Source: a bacterium (lineage in GTDB: Bacteria > Cyanobacteriota > Vampirovibrionia > Gastranaerophilales > Gastranaerophilaceae). Taken from it: a stretch of 64,000 nucleotides of DNA. Below are positions 3,979 to 53,910 of this stretch, in pieces (the first letter of the stretch is position 1; the number at the start of each line of letters is the position of its first letter). The notes beneath the pieces were generated by a model. The model made no database searches, was not told the origin of the DNA, and saw only the letters and a program-made list of their open reading frames with translations. The stretch lies in the NCBI GenBank assembly GCA_017467605.1, contig JAFUSQ010000060.1:1-64000 (forward strand), written 5' to 3'. Position numbers and translations under genes: made by a program.

Positions 3979-4770
3979 TTACACCCAGCCTGATTTTAGC
4001 GCATTTTTATAATTATACGGCAACGGTTCAATTACTTCTCTTGCCTGAATTATCAATTCTTTAGCATTCGATAATTTATTTGAAAAATGTATAGAATCTG
4101 CTCTAACAATTGTTCTTTCGCCTACGTTATTAGGCAATTGAGAATTTTGCAAAAGCCCTTTTAATCTTTGGATTGACATTTCAGTATTTTCCAAATCCCT
4201 TGCTGAAAAATCTATGTTTCCATTAACGTCATACATTTTTTCAAGGTGAACTTCGTGTGCAACTTGAATGTTTTCTTCCTCCGCAACAGTGGCAAGAGTT
4301 TCACCTGTCGCTCCGTAATATACAAGCCATTGTGAACATTTTTTTATTGCTTTAGCAATAGTTCTTGAAAATTCTAAATCTTCCATAGCCTGACGATACA
4401 TTGCACCATGCGGTCTGACATGCTCAATTTCCATATTATAAGCTTTTGCAAATGTCATAATTGCGCCTACCTGATACATAACAAGAGCCTCTAACTCATC
4501 TTCATCAAGCTCCATTTGGCGATACCCGAATCCTTGAATATCATCAAAGCCAATATGAGCACCTACTACAATATTTTTTTCTTTTGCCTGCAGCAATGCT
4601 TCTTTTATCGTTAATGGATCTCCTGCGTGAAATCCGCAAGAAATATTAACAGAACTAACATAATCCAATAATCTTGACTCGGTACTGTTCTTATAAATCC
4701 CGAAACTTTGGGCTAAATCACAGTTAAAATCAATATTTTTAATACTTTTTCTCTCTAAAACATTTTGCAT
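3979..4770 (-). CDS. pxpA: LamB/YcsF family protein, 5-oxoprolinase subunit A-like
   Basis: 263 residues, family length about 250. Hallmarks are IDFNCDLAQSFG, VNISCGFHAGDP, VVGAHIGF and HVRPHGAMY. PxpA works with PxpB and PxpC to open 5-oxoproline to glutamate using ATP. PxpB and PxpC are not within the window, so the function is assigned from the family only. An ATG at 4770 gives an N-terminus of typical length. It is a single leftward gene; the 100 bp upstream is AT-rich. Confidence 0.85.
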   Translation of the reverse strand: MQNVLERKSIKNIDFNCDLAQSFGIYKNSTESRLLDYVSSVNISCGFHAGDPLTIKEALLQAKEKNIVVGAHIGFDDIQGFGYRQMELDEDELEALVMYQVGAIMTFAKAYNMEIEHVRPHGAMYRQAMEDLEFSRTIAKAIKKCSQWLVYYGATGETLATVAEEENIQVAHEVHLEKMYDVNGNIDFSARDLENTEMSIQRLKGLLQNSQLPNNVGERTIVRADSIHFSNKLSNAKELIIQAREVIEPLPYNYKNALKSGWV

Positions 4771-4871
4771 AATTAATTATCCCAATATAAATAAATCCTG
4801 ACTTGATTATACACAATCAAAAATATAAATCTATCTCTTTATATTTTCTTAATAGAAAGAAATTCAATAAC

Positions 4872-5030
4872 TTAATCTTCGTTAATAGAAAAATTTTGAG
4901 GCAATTCCTTTTCAACTTCAGCCATAAATTGTGAAATACTCATGCTAAATGCACCTGAAAGCTTGAATAAAGTCGTTAATTGAGGATCTTTAACTTCACG
5001 TTCCAAATCACTCAAAACAGAAACGGAAAA
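4872..5030 (-). pseudogene. 3' remnant of an XRE-family regulator
   Basis: An open frame of 52 codons without a start ends at 4872. Its translation (SDLEREVKDPQLTTLFKLSG, then FMAEVEKELPQNF and INED) matches the C-terminal half of the XRE gene at 38594-38881 (LEKGKRDVQITTLWRLAEA, EFVKEVEKNLPKNF, LTED). The N-terminal helices and the promoter region are missing, and a stop at 5031-5033 closes the frame on the upstream side. It faces an orphan leader on the plus strand, so it appears to be a decayed regulator/prepilin module. Confidence 0.7.
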
Positions 5031-5036
5031 TTAAAA

Positions 5037-5278
5037 ATGGAGGTAAGAGTAAATATGACAAGAATTACTCTGCCCCGATGGGGAGCACGAAATGCCAATA
5101 GAGAGTTAATTTGCTCGTATGGTTTAATGCAAAACTCTTGAGATACCATAATTGTACCCCTCCTAACCTCCCCCTCTGGGGAGGAAAAAATGTAAAATCT
5201 TCTGCCCCGATGGGGGAAGTGACACGAAGTGCCGAAGGGGAATAAACCCGTAGGGAAAGTTATGAAATTCTTCGGGAC
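5037..5278 (+). repeat. Orphan leader-like start followed by dispersed repeats
   Basis: ATGs at 5037 and 5055 open a frame of about 30 codons (starting MTRITLPRWGARNA from 5055) that stops without any FTLxE motif. It sits where a prepilin gene would lie beside the regulator remnant. The rest holds a CCTCCCC/GGGGAGG hairpin repeat (about 5160-5187), a 58-bp repeat (5201-5258: TCTGCCCCGATGGGG, CACGAAGTGCCGAAGGGG, CCCGTAGGGAAA) that recurs at 41756-41812, and a TTATGAAATTCTTCGG unit that recurs near 39463. No gene is supported here. Confidence 0.6.
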
Positions 5279-5307
5279 TTGATTTTAAAAATTCCTCATT
5301 ATATTAT
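5279..5307 (+). promoter_or_regulatory. Promoter of rpmE
   Basis: TTGATT (5279-5284), a 17-nt spacer and TATTAT (5302-5307) lie 59 bp upstream of the rpmE start. The short leader ends in a GAAGGAAAGAAGG ribosome-binding region. Confidence 0.6.
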
Positions 5308-5365
5308 CCTATTAGTCGAAAGTAAATAAGTTCAAGTTTGGAATCTTGAAGGAAAGAAGGTAAAA

Positions 5366-5569
5366 ATGAAAAACGGAATTCACCCTGATTATAAGAAAAC
5401 TACAATCAAGTGTGTTTGTGGAAACGAAATTGAAACAGGATCAGTAGTAGACGGTTTAACAGTTGAAATTTGCAACAACTGCCACCCATTCTACACAGGT
5501 CAACAAAAAATATTAGACTCTGAAGGCCGTGTTGAAAGATTCAACAAAAGATACGGTAAGAAAAACTAA
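5366..5569 (+). CDS. rpmE: 50S ribosomal protein L31
   Basis: 67 residues, normal for the zinc-binding (C+) form of L31. The four metal ligands are seen as CVC (C16, C18) and CNNC (C36, C39), with the MKNGIHPDY start typical of the family. It binds the large subunit near the central protuberance. Monocistronic: a promoter lies at 5279 and a strong terminator follows within 25 bases. The C+ type implies that zinc limitation could be buffered by a paralogue outside the window. Confidence 0.97.
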
Positions 5570-39541: not shown

Positions 39542-41635
39542 TTAGTTAGAGAACATTGTGAAGGTTTTTTCAATACTCTTTGATATCAAGCCTTTTACAG
39601 TATCATATTCTGTTGACAATGCTGAAATTTCTGCATCTAACTGTTTTGTTTCAAAATCAATCTTGTCTTCTTTATATGTTAATTCAGCTTTCTTAGATGC
39701 AAATTCAGCTTCTGCCCTTGCTATTGCATCAGTATCGGATACTTCTTCCATATAGCCTGTTTCATTATATCTAGTTTGATAATAATATCCGTCAGCATTC
39801 AAAGAACTCATTGAATAACGTCCGTCTTTCAGCGCACTTTCCAAATATTCATTGTCATCAAGTGCGGCATCTTCTCTCCAGCCATGTTCTAAGATATTAT
39901 TATAAAGTTGGTCAAAGAAGTCGGCAGATTTTCTGTCAGCTGCAGTTATTGCATTCGGATCAGTCTGTGCAATATACTGATACCCGACATTATCCGTTAC
40001 ATAAACTGATGTATCCACAGCTTTACCAACAACATAGCTTGAACTCATACCGTATAATAAGTTGTCATAGTAAGTTAAAAATGCAGACATCATATTTGAC
40101 AAACTTACACCGTTGGTTGAATAATCTGTTTTGGATATTTTAGTATTTCCTGTACCAATTCTATTATAATTTTGTGCATTCAAGTATACAGAGTTTTCTG
40201 TCATTGCAGTTGAACTTGTTCTGGAACCGTTATTTATAGCATTTTTTGCTCTTAAAAATGTTCCGACAACCATTTCATATGCAAATTCCAATGCTTTTGA
40301 TGAAGCGTCATCAACATTTAGACCTTGTCCTGACATATCCGTATAAGGTGAATAACCTAAAACTTTTGTCAATGAAGCAAATAAACTTTTTACCTGTTTT
40401 GCAAAATCTTCAGTTGATTTACCCACGTTCATCAAAACTACATCACCTGACAGAATATCTCCTAAAGTTAAATCAGCTATTTCACTTTCATAGTGATTAA
40501 TAATCCCGTTTTTAACAAGTGTATATTGATTATTAGTTAATGAATTGGAAGTTGTGTTGAATATATTTTGTTTTGAATAATCAAGCTCTTCAAACTCTTT
40601 GGTTTGTCCGTTTGCATCAATATATGTAAGAGAACTGTTGTAATTGTTATAATCGTTTTCTAATTGAGCTTGTACCGCTGCAATAACGTCATCTTTTTTA
40701 ATTGATGTAATATTACCGTCTGAATCAACAACATATTCAATACCTAAATCATTTTGCTTTATAAATTGGTTCATAACCTGAGTTGCGTTACCAAGCAAAG
40801 TTTCAAGTCTTGTTACCTCAGATTGGTTAGGTGTTGATTTATTTTTTTCGTTATTTAAATCTCTGCTTAATTGGTTAATAATATCGGTATTCAAAATACC
40901 TAATTTAGCATCATCTTTTAATCCTTGCAAACGAGCTAATTCTGCATCTTTTTCAGCCTTAGTAATTTGTTTTTCGGTATCTGTTATAAGTAATTGGCTC
41001 CAGTCAACTTTCTGCTGCCCGATTGCTTCACTCATAACTAACTCAGACAAAGTAATAGTTTCAGCACCGCTCTTATTAATCGGTTCTGCACCCATACCTG
41101 CAGCAGGGTTCCAATTTACACCTGTAGTATTATCTATTGCAACACCCGCAGAATTTGTTTTGATACCGGCATATAAACCTTTTGAATCACCAACAACGTC
41201 CATTGTGGTTGTAATAGCATTTGTAGTATTAACAGTTACAATACCTTCCCCGCATAGAGCCGCAATAAATTTATCACGAGATGTTTGAGAACCGATACCG
41301 CCGGATTTTGGAATTCCTGCAGCTTTTGCAGCTATTGCAAATTGGTTATTCAAAACAACTGCACCTGAGCGTGAAGTTATCAAATAAGGGTTAAAATCAT
41401 TCATAGCAGAAGGTGTCATCAACAACGCATATGACAAACCGTAATCTCTGCTGGTTGCATCATTTGACCAAATTAATTTGGTAGCATTCATAGCGGAAGC
41501 ATACTCATTAGAAATGTCAGATAACTGATTTGTTATCTCAAGCTTACGCTGAGCCAATTCTGTTGATCTGTATTCACAATTAGCCTTTCTTGCCGTTATA
41601 CATAAAAATCTAGCTTGTGAAGCTGCCAATCCCAT
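39542..41635 (-). CDS. Large flagellin-shaped protein of unknown function
   Basis: 697 residues, no signal peptide or membrane helix. The N-terminus is MGLAASQARFLCITARKANC followed by a helical region (ELAQRKLEITNQLSDISNEY); the C-terminal about 70 residues are a long helix (AEFASKKAELTYKEDKIDFE ... LISKSIEKTFTMFSN). The middle is Thr/Asn/Ser-rich with few Cys. Helical termini around a polar centre are the architecture of flagellin and hook-associated proteins, but no flagellin motif is recognised. I infer an exported filament or appendage protein using a non-Sec route. TACGAAAAAAATGGG start is clear; repeats flank both sides. Confidence 0.6.
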   Translation of the reverse strand: MGLAASQARFLCITARKANCEYRSTELAQRKLEITNQLSDISNEYASAMNATKLIWSNDATSRDYGLSYALLMTPSAMNDFNPYLITSRSGAVVLNNQFAIAAKAAGIPKSGGIGSQTSRDKFIAALCGEGIVTVNTTNAITTTMDVVGDSKGLYAGIKTNSAGVAIDNTTGVNWNPAAGMGAEPINKSGAETITLSELVMSEAIGQQKVDWSQLLITDTEKQITKAEKDAELARLQGLKDDAKLGILNTDIINQLSRDLNNEKNKSTPNQSEVTRLETLLGNATQVMNQFIKQNDLGIEYVVDSDGNITSIKKDDVIAAVQAQLENDYNNYNSSLTYIDANGQTKEFEELDYSKQNIFNTTSNSLTNNQYTLVKNGIINHYESEIADLTLGDILSGDVVLMNVGKSTEDFAKQVKSLFASLTKVLGYSPYTDMSGQGLNVDDASSKALEFAYEMVVGTFLRAKNAINNGSRTSSTAMTENSVYLNAQNYNRIGTGNTKISKTDYSTNGVSLSNMMSAFLTYYDNLLYGMSSSYVVGKAVDTSVYVTDNVGYQYIAQTDPNAITAADRKSADFFDQLYNNILEHGWREDAALDDNEYLESALKDGRYSMSSLNADGYYYQTRYNETGYMEEVSDTDAIARAEAEFASKKAELTYKEDKIDFETKQLDAEISALSTEYDTVKGLISKSIEKTFTMFSN

Positions 41636-43980: not shown

Positions 43981-44140
43981 GGGGTAAATGTTGCCGCCAA
44001 TTACTTTAAATCTCCACAAATTATTGCAGAGGGGGGTAAATGTTGCCGCCAATTACCTTAAATCTCCACAAATTATTGCAGGGGGAGTAAATGTTGTTAC
44101 GAACTGCCTAAAATTTCACAAATAGCTGCAGAAGCGGGAA
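43981..44140. repeat. Three tandem 51-52 bp repeats
   Basis: GGGGTAAATGTTGCCGCCAA ... AAATCTCCACAAATTATTGCAG starts at 43981, 44033 and (degenerate) 44084. A small frame from the ATG at 43961 runs into the first copies. No gene is supported. The third copy is eroded, so the array is old. Confidence 0.8.
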
Positions 44141-44250: not shown

Positions 44251-44478
44251 TCACTTTAAAATCAAACAGTCATAAATTTTATCAATTTTATCTTTCATAT
44301 CAATGAATTGACTTTTCAAATCATTAAAACTGTTTATTGTCGTAAATCTGTTTTCAACGTCTTTTATAATTTCTCTATGTTTCTTCTCAAGTTGTTCCGG
44401 GGTGACAACAATTCTTTCTTGAATTAAGAACATTAGAACAACGACAATCACAGGTGCATAATTTACAAATATATCCAT
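44251..44478 (-). CDS. Small membrane protein at the end of the virion cluster
   Basis: 75 residues: an N-terminal membrane helix (about 5-20, YAPVIVVVLMFLIQ) and a long charged coiled-coil tail (QLEKKHREIIKDVENRF ... IDMKDKIDKIYDCLI). It lies 45 bp after terL in the same direction, with a GGAG ribosome site. The shape fits a small phage lysis-associated (spanin- or holin-like) protein, but there is no family match. Confidence 0.6.
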   Translation of the reverse strand: MDIFVNYAPVIVVVLMFLIQERIVVTPEQLEKKHREIIKDVENRFTTINSFNDLKSQFIDMKDKIDKIYDCLILK

Positions 44479-44523
44479 AGGATTTTATATTCTCCTTTCT
44501 GATTATAAAATTTATCTCTATCC

Positions 44524-45813
44524 CTACAATACTATCGGCCAATAAAAATCAACAAGATATGATGCAGCATCAAACGGGTGTGATAAAAATTTTAACTCTT
44601 TTGTTTGTTTAATTTGGGTATAGGTCGGAATATCAATTTTTGAAGAACCTTCAATATATCTAAGATTATAGATGTTATACAAAAGTTTTTCACATTTTGG
44701 GGAAATGTATAAATTTATTTCTCCGTCAGCATTTTTTACCTTTGCGTTAAATGCCGCAATTCTGTTTTTTATCGGAGGGTTAAATGATTTTATTTTAATC
44801 TCAACATCATACCCGTAGGCTTCAAGTTTACGCTTTATTATGACGTAATTCGTATATTCGCTCGTGCAGCTTCTGTTATCTCCTGATGCATCACCATTGA
44901 TAATAACTTTCCCTTTATGGTCAGGATAACGATTATGAAATTCTTCGCAAGTTTTTGCAGTCGTTGTATTTTCTAAAACCAATTCATCAAAATAAAAAAC
45001 TTTATCCTCAGTTTTATGCGCCAGCACCCAGGCCATAGGATCTACGTTGAAATCGCAGCTTATATGAACATCTAAATCTTTCTGATATGTAATATCCCGA
45101 ACATTTTCGTCAGTAAAATCTTTCACTACAAGATTTGTATTATAATTTCCGATTTGCCCCAAAACAAAAATATCATAGTAATCTTTATCATATAACTTTT
45201 TCAGTTCATCACAAAACCCTTGAGGTAAGTATATGTTTTGAGTGGTTGGAGCACAAATCAAACGATAATTAGGAGCTGATTTTTTATAAAAAGTTTCATA
45301 AATCCAACCTTTTTGAATTTCCGGATTTGTATGACCAAAAATCCTGTAAGTAAAGTTATACCAGCAGGCACGCTTTTTTTGACGCATTCTTGCCAGAAGC
45401 ATTTTGAATGTATCATAAGGAATATCAGACATTTCTTCAATTTCAACAAAACCTAAATTGAGAGATTTTAATTTATTTGGCTCATCAAAATGTCTAAATA
45501 AAATTTGTGAACCGTTTTTAAATATTAATTTTTGTTCAGAACTAATCCACTTATAGTCTTTCCCCTCGAGAAACCCCATATTTTCAAGATGCTCATAATA
45601 AGTTTTTAAGGTAGTATCTCTTACAAGGGTATATGTTTGAGCTCCAACAAGTCCGATTATTCCGGGGAATTTTAATGCAAGAAGAATACCCAGCAGGGCT
45701 CCGGCAAAAGTTTTGCCGGAACCATACCCGCCCTGGTATACTGCGACGTCCAGGGAATAACTGTGAGGAATTTCTAAGAATTCTCGTTGTGCATTCAGTA
45801 ATTTGTATTTCAT
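44524..45813 (-). CDS. Phage terminase large subunit
   Basis: 429 residues. ATPase Walker A GGYGSGKT (28-35), Walker B LGFVEIEE (about 121-128), and a nuclease domain with HISCDFNVDP (Asp about 255) and IINGDASGDNR. It packages DNA into a prohead. Complete and uninterrupted; the nuclease acids are present, so packaging may still work. Follows the portal gene. Confidence 0.92.
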   Translation of the reverse strand: MKYKLLNAQREFLEIPHSYSLDVAVYQGGYGSGKTFAGALLGILLALKFPGIIGLVGAQTYTLVRDTTLKTYYEHLENMGFLEGKDYKWISSEQKLIFKNGSQILFRHFDEPNKLKSLNLGFVEIEEMSDIPYDTFKMLLARMRQKKRACWYNFTYRIFGHTNPEIQKGWIYETFYKKSAPNYRLICAPTTQNIYLPQGFCDELKKLYDKDYYDIFVLGQIGNYNTNLVVKDFTDENVRDITYQKDLDVHISCDFNVDPMAWVLAHKTEDKVFYFDELVLENTTTAKTCEEFHNRYPDHKGKVIINGDASGDNRSCTSEYTNYVIIKRKLEAYGYDVEIKIKSFNPPIKNRIAAFNAKVKNADGEINLYISPKCEKLLYNIYNLRYIEGSSKIDIPTYTQIKQTKELKFLSHPFDAASYLVDFYWPIVL

Positions 45814-45825
45814 TTCTAACTCTCT

Positions 45826-47484
45826 TTAAAGATTTTCACTATTATTTTCAGAAGTTAAAAAATTGTTTGCATTTTCAATGCCGTATTGCTCCATTGCGAA
45901 TTTGAAGCATTCAAGCCAATCAATACGTTTAGCTACAACATCTATTTGAGTAAACGATTGAATTAAATCAAATAATTCTTTCATTCGACTTTTTCTCTCA
46001 AATCCTGCTTTTCTGTCACCATAACGATAGATATAATTTGAATTTCTTACCTTATCATCTATTTCAACAAGAAAAATACGTCCCCTATCATTTGCAAGAA
46101 TAGCCTGCTTACCTAATTTGAAATTTGAAATAATTTCAGCAGTTTTTTCTACCATAGGAACAATAACTTTTCTGTTTATTGCTTCTAAAATCATATTCAA
46201 TCGAGCTTCTTGACCACTTACGGAGTAATTTATTTCTGTTGCTGTTCTATCAAAATTTTGAATATTTCCTGTCATATTTTTGAAAATACCGGTTGCACTT
46301 TCGATTGTAGATTTAAAGTAATTTAAGAAATCCCACCCCTGCATTGCTTTATCAAATGAAATAGGAGCAGGAGGATTTGTCATAAGAGAGGCATCATATT
46401 CTATAATTTTCCCCGGTCTGACATCTTGCTCACCTTTAAAACAACCTTTCGGTGCTAAATATGGAGGATTCATCATCAATGCCAATGCATCTAACTGTTT
46501 GTTTAAAATAGTTGAGGAAATATTGTTTAAAATTAGTGCTACTCTGAGAGGTGAAATTCCGCGTCCTGTTGCCGGACATTCAATAATATTTGCGTGAATA
46601 AAAGGATTTATAACAAACGGATTATCTTCACAACGGATTAAGACATTTCTGCCCGCAACAACAATAAGCTTATTTTTTAATATTTCACCGCTTGGTAACT
46701 CAATATCACCCCAGTATTCCAATACTTCAAGCTTGTTTTCATAAGTCCCTAATTGATTTTTTTTTGATTTCTTTGCCAACACTCCTTTCAACATTTCCAA
46801 TTTTTCTGCATTCAATAAATTGTTTGATTTATTAGATTTTATTTCATCAAATGTTTGATAAGTTCTGTAAATTTTCGCACAGGAATCCCAATTTCCGGCT
46901 TCAGTTCTATCAAAAACAAAATCTTCATAATTGATAAATTTAACCTTCGCATTGTCATAAATTACTTTATCTTCAACAACAAAAGCCCCTTCAATATCTT
47001 TTTCAACCTGTTCTTTCAAAGAAACTGCTCTTCTTGTTTTACGGGTTTTAGTTTCCCATCCGACAAAAAGCGTAACTTCTCCTGTTTCTACAACAGAATC
47101 AATAATTTTTTCCATTTCATTTTCAATCTTCATGGCTTCAAAAGTATTAACAAGCATTGCTTTTTGTTTATTTGCAAATTTCTGAGTTTCAAAATCAGTT
47201 CCCTCAACATCAAACATACCATCAGGGTGTGAATACAAATTTTGAACCAAATGAGACTTTAATGTTTGAGCCAGCTCATAAATATCAGGTAATTGAATTC
47301 GACAATCCCAAGCGTTAACTTTTGGGATATCAGCATCATAGATTGAATATTTTACAAGCCTGTTATCAGATAACTGAGAACTTCTTGCATCATCATAGTA
47401 ATCATATTTTTGAATTATGTTATTAAGAAGATATTGTTCTTCAACATAACCTAGTTTTTGTTTGTCCGTAATTATATTTTCCAT
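45826..47484 (-). CDS. Phage portal protein
   Basis: 552 residues. Helical N-terminus, then a region around 300-400 with ATGRGISPLRVALILNNISS, NPPYLAPKGCFKG and GQEARLNMILEAINRKV typical of podovirus/P22-like portals of about 500-700 residues. It forms the dodecameric ring at the head vertex. It lies between the GNAT gene and terL. Confidence 0.85.
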   Translation of the reverse strand: MENIITDKQKLGYVEEQYLLNNIIQKYDYYDDARSSQLSDNRLVKYSIYDADIPKVNAWDCRIQLPDIYELAQTLKSHLVQNLYSHPDGMFDVEGTDFETQKFANKQKAMLVNTFEAMKIENEMEKIIDSVVETGEVTLFVGWETKTRKTRRAVSLKEQVEKDIEGAFVVEDKVIYDNAKVKFINYEDFVFDRTEAGNWDSCAKIYRTYQTFDEIKSNKSNNLLNAEKLEMLKGVLAKKSKKNQLGTYENKLEVLEYWGDIELPSGEILKNKLIVVAGRNVLIRCEDNPFVINPFIHANIIECPATGRGISPLRVALILNNISSTILNKQLDALALMMNPPYLAPKGCFKGEQDVRPGKIIEYDASLMTNPPAPISFDKAMQGWDFLNYFKSTIESATGIFKNMTGNIQNFDRTATEINYSVSGQEARLNMILEAINRKVIVPMVEKTAEIISNFKLGKQAILANDRGRIFLVEIDDKVRNSNYIYRYGDRKAGFERKSRMKELFDLIQSFTQIDVVAKRIDWLECFKFAMEQYGIENANNFLTSENNSENL

Positions 47485-47494
47485 ATTTACCTCG

Positions 47495-48007
47495 TTAATC
47501 TTTGTAATAATAATTTCTGTACAATGCGTACACTTCTATATCCTGCATTTTTCCAAAACGTAATGTTTCATTTTTTAATAGAGATTCATAAACAAATCCG
47601 GTATCTTTTAAAATTTTTCTTACCCTGAAGTTGTCAGGATAGATTTGTGCCTTGATTTTGTGCAAACCTAATTCATCAAAACACTTTTTAAAGAAAAACT
47701 TTGCACTAAAACGGATAAAATTACCCCAAGCCTTTTTATCAAAACATACTGTCAATTCTGCACTGTATAAATCTTTCTCGTTACCGATGAAATTATCCAG
47801 ATACGCAAAACCCATAAAATTATCCTTATTATCCGAGACAACCCAAAAGAAATGAGTTTGATAAAGTAATTTATTTAAACAATCGCCAGTGAGAAAAAAG
47901 TCGTCTAACAGATATTTGGAATATTTATCAAAGCATTTTTTGATATCGGGGAGAAAGTGCAAAGTCAGTAGAGGATTTTCATCTGAAAGTTTTATAAAAT
48001 TAAACAT
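47495..48007 (-). CDS. GNAT-family acetyltransferase in the virion cluster
   Basis: 170 residues. The beta-alpha core FWVVSDNKDNFMGFAYLDNF, AELTVCFDKKAWGN and IKAQIYPDNFRVRKILKDTGFVYES gives the GNAT fold, acetyl-CoA loop included. Located between a small gene and the portal gene, same strand, 10 bp from portal. Phage-borne GNATs may modify host or capsid proteins, or be unrelated cargo. Confidence 0.78.
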   Translation of the reverse strand: MFNFIKLSDENPLLTLHFLPDIKKCFDKYSKYLLDDFFLTGDCLNKLLYQTHFFWVVSDNKDNFMGFAYLDNFIGNEKDLYSAELTVCFDKKAWGNFIRFSAKFFFKKCFDELGLHKIKAQIYPDNFRVRKILKDTGFVYESLLKNETLRFGKMQDIEVYALYRNYYYKD

Positions 48008-48013
48008 TTTTGT

Positions 48014-48367
48014 CTAAATCCTGACTTTTACAAATTTTACATAACTATTCCCGCTGACAAAAGAGTCTGTTTCGCCTGCTAATAGTTTTATTCTGTCAGA
48101 ATTCTGAATACCAAGATACCCTTCTGCCTGAAGCCCGTTTATATAGGATTTTGTCTTGCTGTCTTTGTTAATAACTTCAAATGTAGCTGCTTTTGAAAAA
48201 AGTTTATCATTAGGTACTTCCTTTATTTCAGTAATAAACTTTTTGTCAGAATTTGAAGAAGATTTTTCTAATTCAGCATTAAATTCCTGTTCAATTTTTG
48301 CTTTAACCATTTTTTCGTATTCTTCTCCATTTAGGAGTATTTGTTCTATATCTTTATTTTCTTTCAT
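48014..48367 (-). CDS. Hypothetical virion-cluster protein
   Basis: 117 residues from ATG 48367, with AAAGG 10 nt upstream; an in-frame ATG at 48385 abuts the previous stop. N-terminal coiled helix (NGEEYEKMVKAKIEQEFNAEL), C-terminal beta part. No recognised family; position between terS and GNAT. Confidence 0.6.
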   Translation of the reverse strand: MKENKDIEQILLNGEEYEKMVKAKIEQEFNAELEKSSSNSDKKFITEIKEVPNDKLFSKAATFEVINKDSKTKSYINGLQAEGYLGIQNSDRIKLLAGETDSFVSGNSYVKFVKVRI

Positions 48368-48388
48368 AAAATCTTTACCTTTCATGCA

Positions 48389-48823
48389 TTAAATTTTTTC
48401 GTCATCAAGATTCGCAATAGTAATAATTTTAGCTTCATGATATTCTTCTTCACTCTGTTGATTAGTAAAACCTAAGTATTTACATAAAGCTTCCAGAGCT
48501 TTAAGACCCGCCGAAGAATCTCTTAACTTTTTCTTGCCGGTATAATTACCTTCTTTATCTAAAATATCTTCTTGTTCTAAAGAGAATTCAGCGATTTGTA
48601 AAAGTTTTTGTATAACGTAGCCTTTTTGAACACTTAAAGAATCAATCTGGGACTTTAACTGAGTTTTAATTTCTTGAACAATATAATCTTTTTTTAATAA
48701 TTCTGCAGAAAAATTTTTTAAATCTTTGCATTTATAACCTGATTTTTTTGCGGAAGCTTCACCGTCAAGTGTCCTTATATACTCTGTTACGAACCTTTTT
48801 TGTTGTTGTGTTATTTGTTTCAT
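48389..48823 (-). CDS. Phage terminase small subunit-like protein
   Basis: 144 residues. ITQQQKRFVTEYIRTLDGEASAKKSGY is the HTH start typical of terminase small subunits, followed by a helical oligomerisation region and an acidic tail. It recognises DNA for packaging. Family call from motif and position, 4 genes before terL in the direction of transcription. Confidence 0.8.
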   Translation of the reverse strand: MKQITQQQKRFVTEYIRTLDGEASAKKSGYKCKDLKNFSAELLKKDYIVQEIKTQLKSQIDSLSVQKGYVIQKLLQIAEFSLEQEDILDKEGNYTGKKKLRDSSAGLKALEALCKYLGFTNQQSEEEYHEAKIITIANLDDEKI

Positions 48824-48846
48824 CTTGTTACATTTCTTATAATAAT

Positions 48847-48947
48847 TTGTATTTTTTGCGAATAATTTGTATAATAAACATGCTATTTATATTTCGGCTA
48901 GTGTAAATCTTAACAGGGGGGAATGAAAACGACTTCCTGTTTTTTTT
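48847..48947 (+). ncRNA. Candidate small RNA antisense to the virion operon
   Basis: Plus-strand TTGTAT (48847-48852), 17 nt, TATAAT (48870-48875), with a predicted start near 48882. A terminator-like hairpin AACAGG/CCTGTT (48912-48917/48936-48941) is followed by T7. The implied transcript is about 66 nt. The promoter overlaps two direct copies of AATAATTTGTAT (48841 and 48861), 20 bp apart. Neighbouring genes on both sides are on the minus strand, so this promoter serves no other gene. Expression is unproven. Confidence 0.45.
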
Positions 48948-48951
48948 GCCC

Positions 48952-49590
48952 TTATCGTCTGAAGATATTTACTACCGGAGCATTTAAAACAGATGCCGAA
49001 GTCTTTGATTTCAGATTAGACAAAGCTTCTTTATACATGCTCAGCCAATACGAAAATTTGAAATATTGAGGATTTGCCTTTAATCTCAAGCATGTTCCAT
49101 ACACCAATAATTGTTCGGCAAAAGGCATAGGAATAAGTGATGTATCATCAGCATTTTCCATATCAGTTTTTTCTTGACTATTCGCATCAATTACACAATT
49201 TTTGGTAAAATAAATTATATCAACAGTCTTTTCTTCATTAAATTTTGGGAACAACAAATTTTGAGCAAGACTTGAATATGTACAGGCTTTTGCTTTTCCT
49301 GAAACAAAAGGCTCCACGTTATCACAGAAATCATATCTTTGTCCGTCAATAAAAAGATATAATATTCGCCCGTTCACAGTATTTAAGATTTCTGTCGTAT
49401 TTGCAGGTAAAGTCAAATTTGTACGTCTTAATAAAAAATTCCAGCCTTCAATATTACAAATTTCCTTATTTATAACATTTACAATAGTTTTAATTCTTTT
49501 GTGGTCATTTTTTACAAGTTCAGAAAACGCATTCACCTGTCTATAATTCAATTCAAGTAAACATTTATTTATAATTTCTAAATAATTCAT
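48952..49590 (-). CDS. Head-tail adaptor-like virion protein
   Basis: 212 residues from ATG 49590, with GGAG 5 nt before; a frame from 49620 lacks a site. IINKCLLELNYRQVNAFSEL, ICNIEGWNFLLRRTNLTL and ILYLFIDGQRYDF resemble podoviral adaptor/tail accessory proteins (P22 gp4-like). Fits its place between capsid genes and terminase genes. Family call is by pattern only. Confidence 0.65.
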   Translation of the reverse strand: MNYLEIINKCLLELNYRQVNAFSELVKNDHKRIKTIVNVINKEICNIEGWNFLLRRTNLTLPANTTEILNTVNGRILYLFIDGQRYDFCDNVEPFVSGKAKACTYSSLAQNLLFPKFNEEKTVDIIYFTKNCVIDANSQEKTDMENADDTSLIPMPFAEQLLVYGTCLRLKANPQYFKFSYWLSMYKEALSNLKSKTSASVLNAPVVNIFRR

Positions 49591-49669
49591 CATATCTCCT
49601 TTTTTTGAAATGCCGAACAAGAAATAAAATTTATTCCTTGTCCGGACAAATCATTTGAATTTAACCAAA

Positions 49670-50338
49670 CTATTTGATTAAGCCTTGTTTCAACTGTGCC
49701 ATAATCATTTTTTCATTCTTGGCAAATTCGTCACCACTCATATTGCCGATTTCCTCACGAGTAAAAATCCTATCCATTTTATTGTCCGATGGAGCATTTT
49801 GAGCATAAGCCGTCAACTTGCTCTTGGCAATCGTGTTCTCGTCATTCAATGATTTCTCGTAAGCTGTTTTCTTCAAATAGTTTTCAACTGCTGAATTTTC
49901 TATAACTTCAACGAGTTTAGCTATTTTGTCTATTTCATCTTTATCCATATCAAATCCTTTAATATAATTCAGGATTTCACCTCTTGCTTCACCGTCAAAA
50001 AATCCCGGACGTTCTTGATTGAACAAAGTCATAGGATCCTGAGCGGCAGCAGGTTCTTGAACAGGTTGAGTTTGATTATTTTGCATAACAGATTCTTTGT
50101 ACGCATTAATTTGTTGGGCTTTAGCAACTAATTTTTGTAACAGATATTGTCCTTGATTTTGAGTAATTACATTATTTTGTACAAGGTTTCTGACATGTTC
50201 AACATCAGCCCCTATTGCTTGTTCAAGCTGGTAAAATACGTCTTTATATTCTAATGAATTTGCCTGTGGACTTACGGCAGGCGATGAAACAGCATTGTTT
50301 AATTCTTGCGGAAAACTTCCGCCAACATAATTTTGCAT
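49670..50338 (-). CDS. Scaffold-like virion protein
   Basis: 222 residues, charged and helical with low-complexity Gln/Ala/Pro regions (NNQTQPVQEPAAAQDPM) and a C-terminal basic tail (MIMAQLKQGLIK). Size, composition and position next to the major capsid gene suggest an internal scaffolding protein. No motif proves it. Confidence 0.55.
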   Translation of the reverse strand: MQNYVGGSFPQELNNAVSSPAVSPQANSLEYKDVFYQLEQAIGADVEHVRNLVQNNVITQNQGQYLLQKLVAKAQQINAYKESVMQNNQTQPVQEPAAAQDPMTLFNQERPGFFDGEARGEILNYIKGFDMDKDEIDKIAKLVEVIENSAVENYLKKTAYEKSLNDENTIAKSKLTAYAQNAPSDNKMDRIFTREEIGNMSGDEFAKNEKMIMAQLKQGLIK

Positions 50339-50343
50339 AAAAT

Positions 50344-50595
50344 TTATACTCCTTCCGATTTTGACAAAGATTTCATATAACTAACGGAAATTTCGACTAC
50401 ATCATCTATAAAGCTCGATAGAAAAATTGAAATAATATTCCTTACAAATCCGGAAAACGGAAGATTTTTAACAATATATTCAATAGCAAGTTTTTTCTTT
50501 TCTTGTCCTGCTCCGGAACCAAGCTCATCTTCTGCAACCAAAACCGCATTCTTTGCCAATTCTTTTATTTGATTTTTTATATTTGAAAACATAAT
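50344..50595 (-). CDS. Small virion-cluster protein, possibly holin-like
   Basis: 83 residues from the ATG at 50595, which follows a GGAG site; a frame from 50652 is longer but lacks one. The C-terminal half has an amphipathic/hydrophobic segment (FSGFVRNIISIFLSSFIDDVVEI). Position between capsid and scaffold genes is unusual for a holin, so the role is uncertain. Confidence 0.5.
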   Translation of the reverse strand: MMFSNIKNQIKELAKNAVLVAEDELGSGAGQEKKKLAIEYIVKNLPFSGFVRNIISIFLSSFIDDVVEISVSYMKSLSKSEGV

Positions 50596-50665
50596 ATCTC
50601 CTGTTGTTTTAATTGCACTCTCAACCCTAAAATTTATGAATTGAGAGTACAATTATGGAAAAAGA

Positions 50666-51523
50666 CTATTCTCCGACAGTACAAATCAATTTAGCTAAAG
50701 CTTTTGGCTGAACTGCTTTTGCGCCGTATAAATACAAACCTCTAACCAAATCAGAGAAGCTGTCTTTATCTCTTAAGCTTTCAATTTTAGCAAGCTGAGA
50801 TGCGAAGGTAATTGCATTATTAGTACCTGCTAAAACGTAGTATTTATCATCAACATCTGTCAAGTTAGTGCTTACTAATACGTCCATGCCTGCAATTCTG
50901 CCGATTGAACCTTCTCTTAAAGTTTCATCAGCAACTTTGTATGCTGAAATAAATTCAGGAGATTGTAATAAATAAGCTTCGATAGTCGGATTAATTACAA
51001 CCCAAGGACGAACACCTGCTTGAACTGCATCAGAATTTTTTAATGCCAATGATAATTTTACAAAATTTTCATAAATTGTTGATTTATCAAGTTCAATTGG
51101 AGCAGCTTCCGTACCAATTGTATTTGCACTTACAACATTTGTATGCAAACCAAGTAAATATGAATCTTGAACTTCTTCAATCGCTTTTTTTGCATTAGCC
51201 AAATGAGCTTCCATAATATCAGAATTTGATTGAGCTTGAGAAACATCATCTATTTTGAATGCAAAAAATTTCTTTTGGTCAATAACCAAATCTTGAGATG
51301 TCGGGGTTAAAGTATCATAAGTAATACTGCTTGATGTTAAAGTAGAAACAGAAACTTCTGCAGGTGTAATGATTTTAACGGTATCACCTTGATTTTTGAT
51401 ATCGCCTTCCCAATTTCTGTTAACGCATTGAAGCATTACACAATTTTTTTCCAACATTTGATTTAACTTTTGGCTCCAAATTTGAGGTACAAAAGCTGAA
51501 TAACCCGGTGTTTGACTTGTCAT
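50666..51523 (-). CDS. Major capsid protein
   Basis: 285 residues. VPQIWSQKLNQMLEKNCVML, QGDTVKIITPAEVSVSTLTS, FKIDDVSQAQSNSDIMEAHL and a C-terminal YLYGAKAVQPKALAKLICTV are typical of HK97-fold, P22-coat-like major capsid proteins. AAGGGAAAG before ATG supports high translation. Central gene of the cluster; no disruptions. Confidence 0.85.
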   Translation of the reverse strand: MTSQTPGYSAFVPQIWSQKLNQMLEKNCVMLQCVNRNWEGDIKNQGDTVKIITPAEVSVSTLTSSSITYDTLTPTSQDLVIDQKKFFAFKIDDVSQAQSNSDIMEAHLANAKKAIEEVQDSYLLGLHTNVVSANTIGTEAAPIELDKSTIYENFVKLSLALKNSDAVQAGVRPWVVINPTIEAYLLQSPEFISAYKVADETLREGSIGRIAGMDVLVSTNLTDVDDKYYVLAGTNNAITFASQLAKIESLRDKDSFSDLVRGLYLYGAKAVQPKALAKLICTVGE

Positions 51524-51580
51524 TTTCTTTCCCTTTCTTGTTTTATTACTGTCAACATTTTATGAGTGGTGATTTTTAAA

Positions 51581-53107
51581 TTAATCATCGTTATATATTT
51601 CTCTGAATTGGAGTCCGATAATTGCACAGTTTTCGGTAATATCAGAGCCTTCGATACATAATTGAATTGAATAATTACTTCCGCAAATCTCGGCTTTTTC
51701 CACAGTATTTGTTGAAATAGGCCATACAGGAACTTCATTATTTTCTGTTGCCCAACAACTTAAGACATCATCATCAGAACTATCATCAGATGCCCAGACA
51801 AAATGGCTTAAATGTTTTGCATAAATCAATTCATAATCATCACAGTATTCACTGTCATAATCTTTATAAACAGAAAACTTAAACTTGTTATCGTGAATAT
51901 CATCAAGTACAAAATAAAATTCATCAACCAATTTTCTGTGAAGAACATTTCCCAAGGACAAAAATGGGGATTTCCACATAAAATCTATTGCCTGTCCGTC
52001 AAATGTTTGTCCGTAATCTTCACGATAAATTTTCCCGTTGCTATCGGCAGATACTACATAAGTATCAAATGCACAAGCAGTTGTAATATTTTGAGGGACA
52101 ACACGCTTATACCAAGCGTAATTAAGATAATCGTTAATCCAAATTGTATGGTAGTATTCATCATCAAAATATGGAAAAAAATACCATACTTGATGCTTTT
52201 CGGGATAATGAACAACAAATGAATTTTTTATTCTTGAAATATCAAATTGTTCAAATTCTTTTTTTATATTCAAAGAAATTTCAGACCCTAAACGAATTTG
52301 GTTCAATTCTCCAACTTGTTCGAGAGCATAAATACCGTTACTTAAGAAAAACTGTTTGTTATCAACATTTGCAATTGCACCTCTGGCAAATGCACCTTTA
52401 TCCGCAAATAAAGTAATTGCAAAATCATTCGGATTAGAACCGGAAAGCAAATATACTCTTTCTTTTTTATAAACGGCAAGATAATCCTTATAATTATTCA
52501 TTGTTACAATCTCAGCAGTATCGGTATGAAAATCGTTAATATATCCGGCATCATCTTGAGTTGTAAAATCGTTATAAGTACCAAGAGCGGAATAATATAT
52601 TGTAGAATTTTTGGAACACCACAAGCGACCTTTATAAATAGCTATACTGTCAGGATAAACAGGATTATTATCTGAATCGTTTAGATTACAAAGTTCTACA
52701 TCATAATTTGCATTATTTTTGATATAAAACATTTCGTCGGATTCAGTTGCAACAACCATACCGTACAAAAACGGGGTCATAATAACATTAGTTCCTGAAA
52801 TCGTTTTATCTAATAAAATCAACTCCTCATCAGATTTGGAATAAATATAAATTTTTCCTGAAACAGTTGTTATAACAAGTTTATACTTTCCTTGAGCTTC
52901 CATCGAACACATTGCAGTAATTTCTTCTTCCTCAGGAAGTTCCACTAATAATGTATTACCTTTTTGTTTAATTATCCCTTTGTTATTGTATAACTCAACA
53001 TTTTTAGAATCTGCCCAACAAATGACTCGAGGATTGATTCCGAGTTCGGTTTTTGTTGTAGCCTGATTAATTCCGCCTGATAAGTCAAAGTAATTAACAT
53101 CTGCCAT
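51581..53107 (-). CDS. Beta-propeller-like tail hub protein
   Basis: 508 residues, mainly beta. Repeated short strands (KYKLVITTVSGKIYIYSKSD, NYKDYLAVYKKERVYLLSGS, DTYVVSADSNGKIYREDYGQ) imply a six- or seven-bladed propeller like the P22 gp10 hub and its podoviral relatives. An N-terminal FDLSGGINQATTKTELGINP is shared by such tail proteins. It lies between the amidase and major capsid genes. Confidence 0.7.
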   Translation of the reverse strand: MADVNYFDLSGGINQATTKTELGINPRVICWADSKNVELYNNKGIIKQKGNTLLVELPEEEEITAMCSMEAQGKYKLVITTVSGKIYIYSKSDEELILLDKTISGTNVIMTPFLYGMVVATESDEMFYIKNNANYDVELCNLNDSDNNPVYPDSIAIYKGRLWCSKNSTIYYSALGTYNDFTTQDDAGYINDFHTDTAEIVTMNNYKDYLAVYKKERVYLLSGSNPNDFAITLFADKGAFARGAIANVDNKQFFLSNGIYALEQVGELNQIRLGSEISLNIKKEFEQFDISRIKNSFVVHYPEKHQVWYFFPYFDDEYYHTIWINDYLNYAWYKRVVPQNITTACAFDTYVVSADSNGKIYREDYGQTFDGQAIDFMWKSPFLSLGNVLHRKLVDEFYFVLDDIHDNKFKFSVYKDYDSEYCDDYELIYAKHLSHFVWASDDSSDDDVLSCWATENNEVPVWPISTNTVEKAEICGSNYSIQLCIEGSDITENCAIIGLQFREIYNDD

Positions 53108-53119
53108 AAATTTAACCCC

Positions 53120-53611
53120 TTATAAATTTTCTTTGTACCAACGAACTTTTGAACGTATAAAACTTCCCGCTTCATTCTTCCCAACCCAGGAATATGGTGG
53201 GATAAAAGTTATATCAATTTTTCCAAAACTTGATGTTTTGACATTTGCCTGCCCGAATTCATAATGAGTAAGAACAGTATCTTTAGTGATTTCCAAATTG
53301 TATTTTTTACACAACTCAGCTACAAATTTCATACAAGCTTCAAACTGAATTTTTGTAATCGGATAATCTCCGTGAAACGATGGAGAACGATAGCCGCACA
53401 TACCGCAAAGGCATACACCAACAGAGCCGGTATTTCCTCCTCCTGTGTGCGGGGCATATTTACCGTCTGAACAGTTGTCGTTATCCTCAGGTTTATAAAA
53501 TCCTGTATGAATATTCCCTTCTGCATCAATCAGATAATGATAATACTGTTTTTCAAAATTACTCGGGTAATATTTGCCTGCGCTCCAATGCAAAATTATT
53601 CTTCTAACCAT
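53120..53611 (-). CDS. N-acetylmuramoyl-L-alanine amidase (phage endolysin-like)
   Basis: 163 residues, Amidase_2/PGRP fold: IILHWSAG (zinc His 8), GGGNTGSVGVCLCGM, LTHYEFG (second zinc His), and GKIDITFIPP in place of the usual K.DPG ligand. It cuts the amide bond between MurNAc and L-Ala. No signal peptide or holin-linked segment; probably the lysis enzyme of the cluster. Divergence of the last motif could alter activity. Confidence 0.8.
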   Translation of the reverse strand: MVRRIILHWSAGKYYPSNFEKQYYHYLIDAEGNIHTGFYKPEDNDNCSDGKYAPHTGGGNTGSVGVCLCGMCGYRSPSFHGDYPITKIQFEACMKFVAELCKKYNLEITKDTVLTHYEFGQANVKTSSFGKIDITFIPPYSWVGKNEAGSFIRSKVRWYKENL

Positions 53612-53618
53612 AAATACC

Positions 53619-53822
53619 TCATATCATTTTCAAATTTGGGTGAGCCTGCATGTATATAGCCACAGCATTTGCACGATTTCTTGCATTTAATTTGGAAAAT
53701 ATTGAGTATATATGTGTTTGTACGGTTCTTGATGACATTTGCAGTTTATATGAAATTTCTTTATCAGAGTAACCGCGAGCTATTAAAGTTAATATTTCAA
53801 GCTTTCTTGGAGATAGCTTCAT
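53619..53822 (-). CDS. LuxR/GerE-type single-domain regulator
   Basis: 67 residues from ATG 53822, supported by AAGGGG upstream; an in-frame codon at 53843 lies before that site. Almost only the GerE HTH: LSPRKLEILTLIARGYSDKEISYKLQMSSRTVQTHIYSIFSKL. No receiver or ligand domain, so control must be by abundance or a partner. It is the first gene of the virion cluster, 7 bp ahead of the amidase, with a dyad upstream at 53872. Confidence 0.85.
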   Translation of the reverse strand: MKLSPRKLEILTLIARGYSDKEISYKLQMSSRTVQTHIYSIFSKLNARNRANAVAIYMQAHPNLKMI

Positions 53823-53871
53823 TAAAATGCCCCTTCTAGTCAAGCAATCTGGTTTTATATTTTCATGTTAG

Positions 53872-53891: not shown

Positions 53892-53910
53892 TTTAATGAT
53901 ATCTCCGCAA

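Follow-up and report, generated by a model that had tools for sequence, protein, structure and literature searches.

Only few gene transfer agent (GTA) lineages are known, and the well-studied ones belong mostly to the Alphaproteobacteria. There, GTAs of the RcGTA type are inherited vertically, possess one main structural cluster and involve lysis of the producer cell (in part described in PMC11841831, in part general background). RcGTA is siphovirus-like. A different GTA has been described for the gut anaerobe Faecalibacterium prausnitzii. This FpGTA is encoded by a compact operon of ~10 kb comprising the genes for the small and large terminase (TerS, TerL), portal, scaffold, major capsid protein (MCP) and short-tail proteins (PMC12946183, Nat Commun 2026). 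It was present in 12 of 12 Faecalibacterium genomes examined and is probably podovirus-like, and particles (~40 nm), their DNA (~8.5-9 kb) and proteomic data have been described (PMC12946183).

The window analysed here, a stretch of 64,000 nt, originates from a Gastranaerophilales (Melainabacteria-type) gut bacterium and carries between positions 44251 and 53843 an intact cluster of 13 virion, packaging and lysis genes (~9.6 kb, all on the minus strand). We regard this cluster as a likely case of an independently domesticated, short-tailed GTA, although particles, packaging of host DNA and transfer are inferred. Like FpGTA it is a compact operon of the same kinds of genes in a gut bacterium. 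However, the host of FpGTA is a Firmicute, its lysis and receptor-binding genes lie in a second operon, whereas holin and amidase genes are part of the main cluster here, and the particle, DNA and proteomic evidence available for FpGTA does not exist for the Gastranaerophilales cluster. The FpGTA paper (PMC12946183) mentions neither Gastranaerophilales nor cyanobacteria. Like the RcGTA-type GTAs it is passed on vertically with the host, has its structural genes in one main cluster and, as an inference, lyses the producer, but it differs by its podovirus-type nozzle and by a TerS with an HTH-like region; no homology is claimed.

Similarities to P22/T7-type phages concern the nozzle fold (P22 gp10, T7 gp12, cyanophage Pam1), the T7-type portal family (Head-tail_con) and the phage major-head-protein families. 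In contrast to these phages, the cluster is fixed in the chromosome and has no replication, integration or regulatory module, and no tailspike or needle was found in it. Prophages and phages of Gastranaerophilales (TerL 53-64% identical; second copies in genomes G142 and G309; IMG/VR contigs of 35-47 kb) encode a homologous TerL, MCP or portal, and amidase, but they are mostly sporadic extra copies, differ in gene order or lie on larger contigs. The second copies in G142 and G309 are only ~41% (MCP) and 28-30% (portal) identical to the cluster's proteins. Prophage-like copies within the family (56-64% terL identity) are likewise mostly sporadic extras with a different content.

Gene content of the cluster

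The first gene of the operon (53619-53819, possible ORF start at 53843; minus strand, as all genes below) encodes a LuxR/GerE-type protein consisting of an HTH domain only (Pfam GerE, 8.3e-18). Its position is conserved in relatives, and it is the fastest-evolving gene of the cluster (dN/dS 0.43). Upstream of luxR lies a conserved 14-bp box, GGAAATATTATTAA (window copy GGAGATATCATTAA, 53893-53906, minus strand), which, if up to 3 mismatches are allowed, is present in 54 of the 59 regions upstream of luxR versus 8.6% of shuffles, mostly 68-86 nt before the gene. The box is likely an operator or promoter element, while the regulatory scheme as such is inferred. In a clade with a divided cluster (see below) it was not found upstream of terL, where another promoter-like region is conserved.

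The following gene encodes an Amidase_2 endolysin for lysis (53120-53611; Pfam 9.5e-14; phrog_5867 endolysin 4.9e-30; dN/dS 0.13). Next to it lies the gene for a 508-aa protein (51581-53107; phrog_5107 5.7e-17, phrog_3287 1.8e-15; dN/dS 0.08), a beta-propeller hub whose AF2 model (pLDDT 82.6) has podovirus nozzles as best PDB matches, namely the Pa223 tail (E 9e-18), P22 gp10 (7e-15) and those of the cyanophages Pan3 and Pam1. The model thus predicts a P22-type tail nozzle, and the particle would therefore be short-tailed. The MCP (50666-51523) belongs to the 'major head protein' family phrog_267 (1.2e-51; dN/dS 0.11) and is followed by a holin-like membrane protein (50344-50595; phrog_6918 lysis 3.5e-7, Holin_LLH 2.7e-5). 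A 222-aa protein (49670-50338; dN/dS 0.29), whose gene keeps its position in relatives, is a probable scaffold; this is inferred from the proximity of the capsid gene and from composition, and HMM searches gave no family match. The head-to-tail adaptor or tail protein (48952-49593; phrog_6013 8.5e-9; dN/dS 0.14), TerS (48389-48823; Terminase_2 3e-14, profile positions 2-135 of 141) and a conserved 123-aa protein (48014-48385) come next. The role of the latter is unknown, and its model reached a pLDDT of 83.6, yet there was no fold match at E<=0.001. The remaining genes encode a GNAT-family acetyltransferase (47495-48007; Acetyltransf_3 3.2e-9), the portal protein (45826-47484; phrog_332 1.9e-27, phrog_1216 1.6e-17, Head-tail_con 2.1e-7; dN/dS 0.06), TerL (44524-45813; Terminase_3 2.6e-19, phrog_2 2e-31; dN/dS 0.036) and a 75-aa small membrane protein (44251-44478) that is only weakly BhlA-holin-like (Holin_BhlA, E 0.048) and whose gene adjoins terL even in split clusters.

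Gene content and intactness of the cluster are thereby shown. TerL has intact ATPase and nuclease motifs (GGYGSGKT, Walker B EE, CDFNVDP, NGDASGDN, HPFDAASY), which hardly vary among the 75 homologues compared. Host genes flank the cluster, with a histidine kinase (HK), dxr, gyrB (a name given from sequence alone) and RF on one side and CNNM/CorC and FtsH on the other. A phage integrase (PF00589) is absent from the window's contig, C45, and all 9 matches in the genome lie on other contigs. No flanking direct repeats that could form an att pair were found around the cluster. Neither a replication nor a repressor gene was found on the contig, replication genes being judged only from the ORF content of the flanks. 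Within the cluster, no tail fibre, spike or needle was found and no receptor-binding protein was identified.

These results bear on a preliminary description of the locus. Its ORFs, all of them at the coordinates given and on the minus strand, the reversed, terminase-last gene order, the intact terL motifs and the absence of att repeats all held, and the absence of integrase, repressor and replication genes held for the cluster's contig. It had overlooked the holin-like protein, the 123-aa ORF and a small-RNA gene on the plus strand.

In known GTAs, no DNA-binding domain is detectable in the small terminase (PMC11841831), whereas TerS of the cluster appears to keep such a region, since the Terminase_2 match spans it. 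Within the genus, the HTH segment is the least conserved and fastest-evolving part of TerS, with a mean pairwise identity of 50% versus 86% for the oligomerisation segment. The HTH-like region looks retained, though far less conserved than the remainder; this is an inference from the protein sequence, without binding data.

Distribution, inheritance and selection

All compared genomes are draft assemblies. Both terL and the capsid gene are present in 45 of the 46 species of the host genus, nearly always as single copies, and in 26 of them the cluster is collinear and divergent from the same adjoining histidine-kinase gene. The cluster occurs in 16-17 genera; outside the host genus, it was found with a terL identity of 73-82% in 15 genera. 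Several genera lack the cluster and repeated losses are therefore required; on the host tree, only 6 changes are needed for presence and absence and only 1 for the separation of portal and terL.

The cluster was inherited vertically and co-diverged with its host. Cluster and host rpoB/C trees agree overall (Mantel r 0.78) and within the genus (r 0.83), with 0 of 9999 permutations as high in both cases, and among the other genera (r 0.46; 13 of 9999 permutations as high). The overall range given for the cluster against the host tree is 0.72-0.83, and there are no conflicting splits at support >=90. In one host subclade the cluster is divided over two chromosomal loci, at two internal contig positions, and the retention of both halves after the split is shown. 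Equally shown is the loss in a single species: in G001, the sole genus member without the cluster, the orthologous site still carries HK-dxr and a relic of the cluster, 225 bp long and 84% identical. An assembly gap can be rejected here, as the locus with HK-dxr and relic is assembled.

The cluster is also under purifying selection. Every gene has a median dN/dS clearly below 1, and the values of the core virion genes (0.04-0.11) indicate strong constraint, which is highest for TerL and portal. For the majority of pairs dS approaches saturation; the analysis was restricted to those with pS<0.60. Purifying selection by itself would also be compatible with an active phage.

The checks proposed in the preliminary description thus gave an orthologous location in 26 species and intact genes under purifying selection, and strain-specific presence, which it had named as a refutation, came out opposite at the species level.

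The GTA reading and its rivals

A GTA should be encoded in the chromosome by clustered genes of tailed-phage type for structure and packaging, should be inherited vertically with its host over long times and under purifying selection, and should lack linked replication and integration genes. The cluster fulfils all of this. In the scheme that we propose, a short-tailed (P22/T7-type) phage would have been captured once, by an ancestor of a large Gastranaerophilaceae clade, and pared down to a cluster of 13 particle genes, which the host has kept and passed on vertically. A host-controlled promoter with the conserved box upstream of luxR would turn the operon on, the capsid protein would assemble on the scaffold together with the portal, TerS and TerL would package chromosomal DNA of the host into the heads, adaptor and nozzle would seal each head with a short tail, and holin and amidase would lyse the producer. 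It is inferred that particles are produced, that they package host DNA at random or nearly so and that this DNA reaches recipient cells; the regulatory scheme is an inference as well. The domestication suggested earlier is strongly supported and the GTA-like particle supported, its host-DNA cargo remaining an inference.

A bolder reading is an independent short-tailed GTA in a non-photosynthetic cyanobacterial lineage, possibly the first of the phylum, kept across the radiation of the family and with an embedded small RNA that might also regulate particle production; we offer it tentatively, as the balance tips against it. In the open PMC subset, we found no paper combining Gastranaerophilales and 'gene transfer agent', nor the latter term in papers on Melainabacteria or Vampirovibrio. 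If a GTA is indeed maintained through many genera of this mostly uncultured gut clade, it would be an additional independent domestication, would suggest repeated selection for host-run DNA transfer and would offer a way of exchanging genes to bacteria that are hardly accessible to experiments. Its costs and benefits can be tested directly, since G001 has deleted the cluster, one clade has split it, and sister species differ in whether they have it.

The best surviving alternative, though an unlikely one, is a domesticated particle other than a GTA, with a capsid and short tail that package one specific DNA through recognition by TerS, or that kill or deliver to neighbours. The evidence for domestication would be identical, TerS has a recognisable HTH region, no receptor-binding protein is known, and the operon conserves a GNAT as well as the 123-aa protein of unknown role. 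Against this, the strongest constraint rests on TerL and portal, an indication of DNA packaging, the HTH is what evolves fastest in TerS, and no candidate for a specific cargo is known. Even less probable is a device for anti-phage interference or immunity, in which capsid and terminase parts hijack incoming phages. Related phages and prophages (TerL 53-64% identical) do occur in the same hosts, but a complete set of assembly and lysis genes, unneeded for interference, is conserved and there is no satellite integration or replication module.

An ordinary or decaying prophage is practically ruled out, and for the genus it is refuted at the species level. Most genes have phage homologues, but distribution (45 of 46 species), synteny and the host-congruent tree lead us to reject it, together with purifying selection, the lack of an integrase or att site on contig and flanks, and the maintenance of both loci in the split clade. 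Of the 'podovirus-like remnant' considered earlier, the remnant part is not supported. The 'bacteriocin-like' alternative is less likely because the cluster retains terminase, portal and capsid in intact form, and a tailocin or capsid-less bacteriocin, defined by tail genes without capsid and terminase, does not fit a cluster with capsid, portal and both terminase subunits intact. Passive retention owing to the small-RNA gene, which is ultraconserved between the adaptor and TerS genes of type-A clusters, can be all but dismissed. In G001 the virion genes were deleted while the small RNA stayed, so that nothing compels the cluster to be retained with it. Moreover, purifying selection acts on the proteins themselves, and terL of the split clade moved off the small RNA and is still conserved.

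The embedded small-RNA gene

The small-RNA gene (48878-48947, plus strand) is an antisense host gene and not part of the virion. It consists of an invariant core and a terminator hairpin and is preceded by a promoter-like element read from the sequence (TTGTAT-17 nt-TATAAT; 48847-48875, plus strand). A comparison with Rfam gave no identity, every match having E>2. The gene, ultraconserved and situated inside the operon, is thus a new one. Conservation of the adaptor-TerS spacer as a pac site was considered and rejected in favour of the small RNA, because the element, present almost always once per genome, also occurs in genera without the cluster and has a promoter-like element of its own as well as terminators that are exchangeable. 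It was detected in 219 of 288 genomes of the family, cluster-less ones included. The -10 element TATAAT is found in the copies of other genera, and TACAAT in several g24 genomes.

Gene content and surroundings of the cluster

The region at 44251-53843 on the minus strand encodes, in transcription order, a LuxR-type HTH protein, an amidase, a 508-aa propeller protein (nozzle), the major capsid protein (MCP), a holin-like protein, a 222-aa scaffold-like protein, an adaptor/tail protein, the small terminase subunit TerS, a 123-aa protein of unknown function, a GNAT protein, the portal, the large terminase subunit TerL and a 75-aa membrane protein (m75). The compact one-strand virion cluster proposed in the preliminary description was thus confirmed; the gene list given there did not include the holin, the ORF of the 123-aa protein or a small-RNA gene on the plus strand. 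The absence of an integrase, also claimed there, held for this contig, since all nine phage-integrase matches in the host genome lie elsewhere. Both flanks consist of ordinary host genes, and a search for att-like repeats flanking the cluster found none.

A 52-bp tandem duplication (96%) is located at 43981-44084, between the CNNM gene and the cluster end. The 697-aa protein encoded at 39542-41635 on the minus strand belongs to a multi-copy family (MGLAASQARF...) with conserved ends and a variable middle, a layout which, judged by eye, is flagellin-like. Homologs are found near terL in many genera and accompany terL in the clade with a split cluster.

Distribution within the order

Homologous loci are present in MAGs of Candidatus Gastranaerophilales/Melainabacteria, many of them from guts and rumens. 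Within the genus, terL (78-89% identity for full-length matches, with few exceptions in single copy) and the MCP gene were each detected in 45 of 46 species, the missing species being G001 in both cases. Two terL copies with equal scores occur on one short contig of species G014 (locus L151; C12:565-1851 and 4208-5494), possibly a tandem duplication or an assembly artefact. In the whole family, 175 of 288 genomes have a terL match and 165, counting weak matches, an MCP match.

A close version of the cluster (type A; terL identity of 73-82%) exists in 15 other genera (g7, g9, g10, g13, g14, g15, g17, g20, g22, g23, g25, g27, g30, g35 and g38) and, by MCP only, in g11. A rearranged and more distant version, A-prime, was found in g37 (L315) and in many genomes of g36 (among them L313 and L314), with the order m75-terL-portal-terS-scaffold-MCP-GNAT-adaptor-nozzle-amidase-luxR; the amidase had no match in L315. 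The sister clade g24/g29/g34/g40 is devoid of the type-A cluster; a more distant TerL (~57%) is present in most of its genomes checked and a weakly similar MCP in many. Related MCPs (44-59% identity) also occur in three further families of the order, f3, f5 and f6 (G317, G318, G323, G325, G329, G333). The closest MCP of an annotated phage, with 43% identity, is that of Microcystis phage MaAM05 (MW495066.1: 212675-213478; 274-kb record). In the sister clade g24/g29/g34/g40, G084 (L338/L377/L378) and G149 (L379/L380) have homologs of portal, nozzle and amidase near these genes in a looser and larger region, type B, which might represent another gene transfer agent or a prophage family.

Vertical inheritance, splitting and loss

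It is very likely that the cluster is domesticated and vertically inherited. Gene order is constant within the genus wherever assembled, and in 26 species luxR is divergent from the same histidine-kinase gene, at most 1.3 kb away. A host tree (rpoB with a portion of rpoC; 65 genomes) and a cluster tree (seven concatenated proteins, 40 genomes) agree, with Mantel r values of 0.78 (all), 0.72 (main clade) and 0.83 (genus), never reached in 9999 permutations. For the other genera r was 0.46, a value that 13 of 9999 permutations reached. The trees show no conflicting splits at support ≥ 90 and three at ≥ 80. The median pairwise dN/dS (pairs with pS < 0.60 only) was 0.036 for TerL, 0.064 for the portal, 0.076 for the nozzle, 0.085 for the membrane protein, 0.109 for MCP, 0.113 for TerS, 0.126 for the amidase, 0.143 for the adaptor, 0.225 for GNAT, 0.268 for the holin, 0.294 for the scaffold, 0.307 for the 123-aa protein and 0.429 for LuxR, compared to 0.052 and 0.100 for the neighboring host genes HK (the histidine kinase) and CNNM. 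Internal stops are rare; those not at a C-terminus concern codon 16-18 of the portal gene in G031 and G040, close to the N-terminus and possibly reflecting a start-site difference, and codon 80 of the G165 amidase (L329), where an in-frame stop might reflect a pseudogene or an assembly error.

IMG/VR contigs listed as viral (L031-L052), with 75-89% identical terL, also carry this collinear cluster, and several contain host genes such as CNNM; these contigs are probably miscalled chromosomal fragments. Purifying selection by itself would also be compatible with a phage; together with location and tree congruence it supports domestication.

The cluster is not always contiguous. The portal adjoins terL in 30 species of the genus. 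In six others (G005, G021-G024, G027), 9-16 kb upstream of terL contain no portal and 3.4-4.8 kb downstream of the portal no terL, so the cluster is physically split here, with both halves kept. G020 shows a consistent pattern, but its portal lies just 0.6 kb from a contig end. A single change on the host tree accounts for its six split species (G005, G020-G024). At the orthologous site of G001, with HK (82% identity) and dxr (78%), no cluster gene was found besides a 225-bp piece directly beside HK/dxr, 84% identical to 48818-49042, and therefore loss by deletion is the most likely explanation.

Predicted particle type, regulation and the embedded small RNA

A function as gene transfer agent (GTA) explains the cluster best, but has not been shown. 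Among described systems, FpGTA of Faecalibacterium (PMC12946183) comes closest: it resembles the cluster in size and gene content, and its tail, too, is presumed to be short. Within the literature searched, we found no GTA reported for this lineage. Modelled with AlphaFold2 (pLDDT 82.6), the 508-aa protein resembles the nozzles of podoviruses, with matches to the Pa223 tail (E 9e-18), Vibrio phage VP1, cyanophage Pan3, P22 gp10 and T7 gp12, and from this fold and the portal family a short-tailed particle is predicted. None of the cluster genes was recognized as encoding a tail fibre, spike or needle. The motifs of TerL are almost invariant among 75 homologs. The Terminase_2 match of TerS takes in the HTH region, whereas the small terminases of known GTAs have no detectable DNA-binding domain (PMC11841831). 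It is mainly this differing appearance that keeps us from firmly classifying the cluster as a GTA, although the DNA-binding segment is the least constrained part of TerS (mean pairwise identity in the genus of 50% for residues 23-56 versus 86% for residues 67-121).

In 54 of 59 clusters, luxR is preceded by a 14-bp box, GGAAATATTATTAA, mostly at a distance of 68-86 nt, as against 8.6% of shuffled sequences that contain it; the box may point to a common regulator. It was not found upstream of terL in the split clade, where terL has its own conserved promoter-like region.

The ultraconserved small-RNA gene (48878-48947, plus strand, about 70 nt) lies between TerS and adaptor, antisense to the operon, and comprises a promoter-like element (TTGTAT-17-TATAAT), a core that hardly varies, CTATTTATATTTCGGCTAGTGTAAA, and a hairpin that serves as terminator. 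Its transcription is inferred from these elements and from conservation. It has no Rfam match and is new to Rfam. With up to 2 mismatches allowed, the core is present in 219 of 288 genomes of the family and 32 of 41 genera, almost always as one copy; the reversed pattern, used as a control, gave zero matches in the listed genomes. Since the small RNA also exists amid host genes in cluster-less genera and is what G001 kept, it is a host RNA around which the type-A operon lies. A control of the particle by this RNA is possible, though not shown. Variants are also found in g24 and g41, and species G150 retains the core with a different hairpin as terminator.
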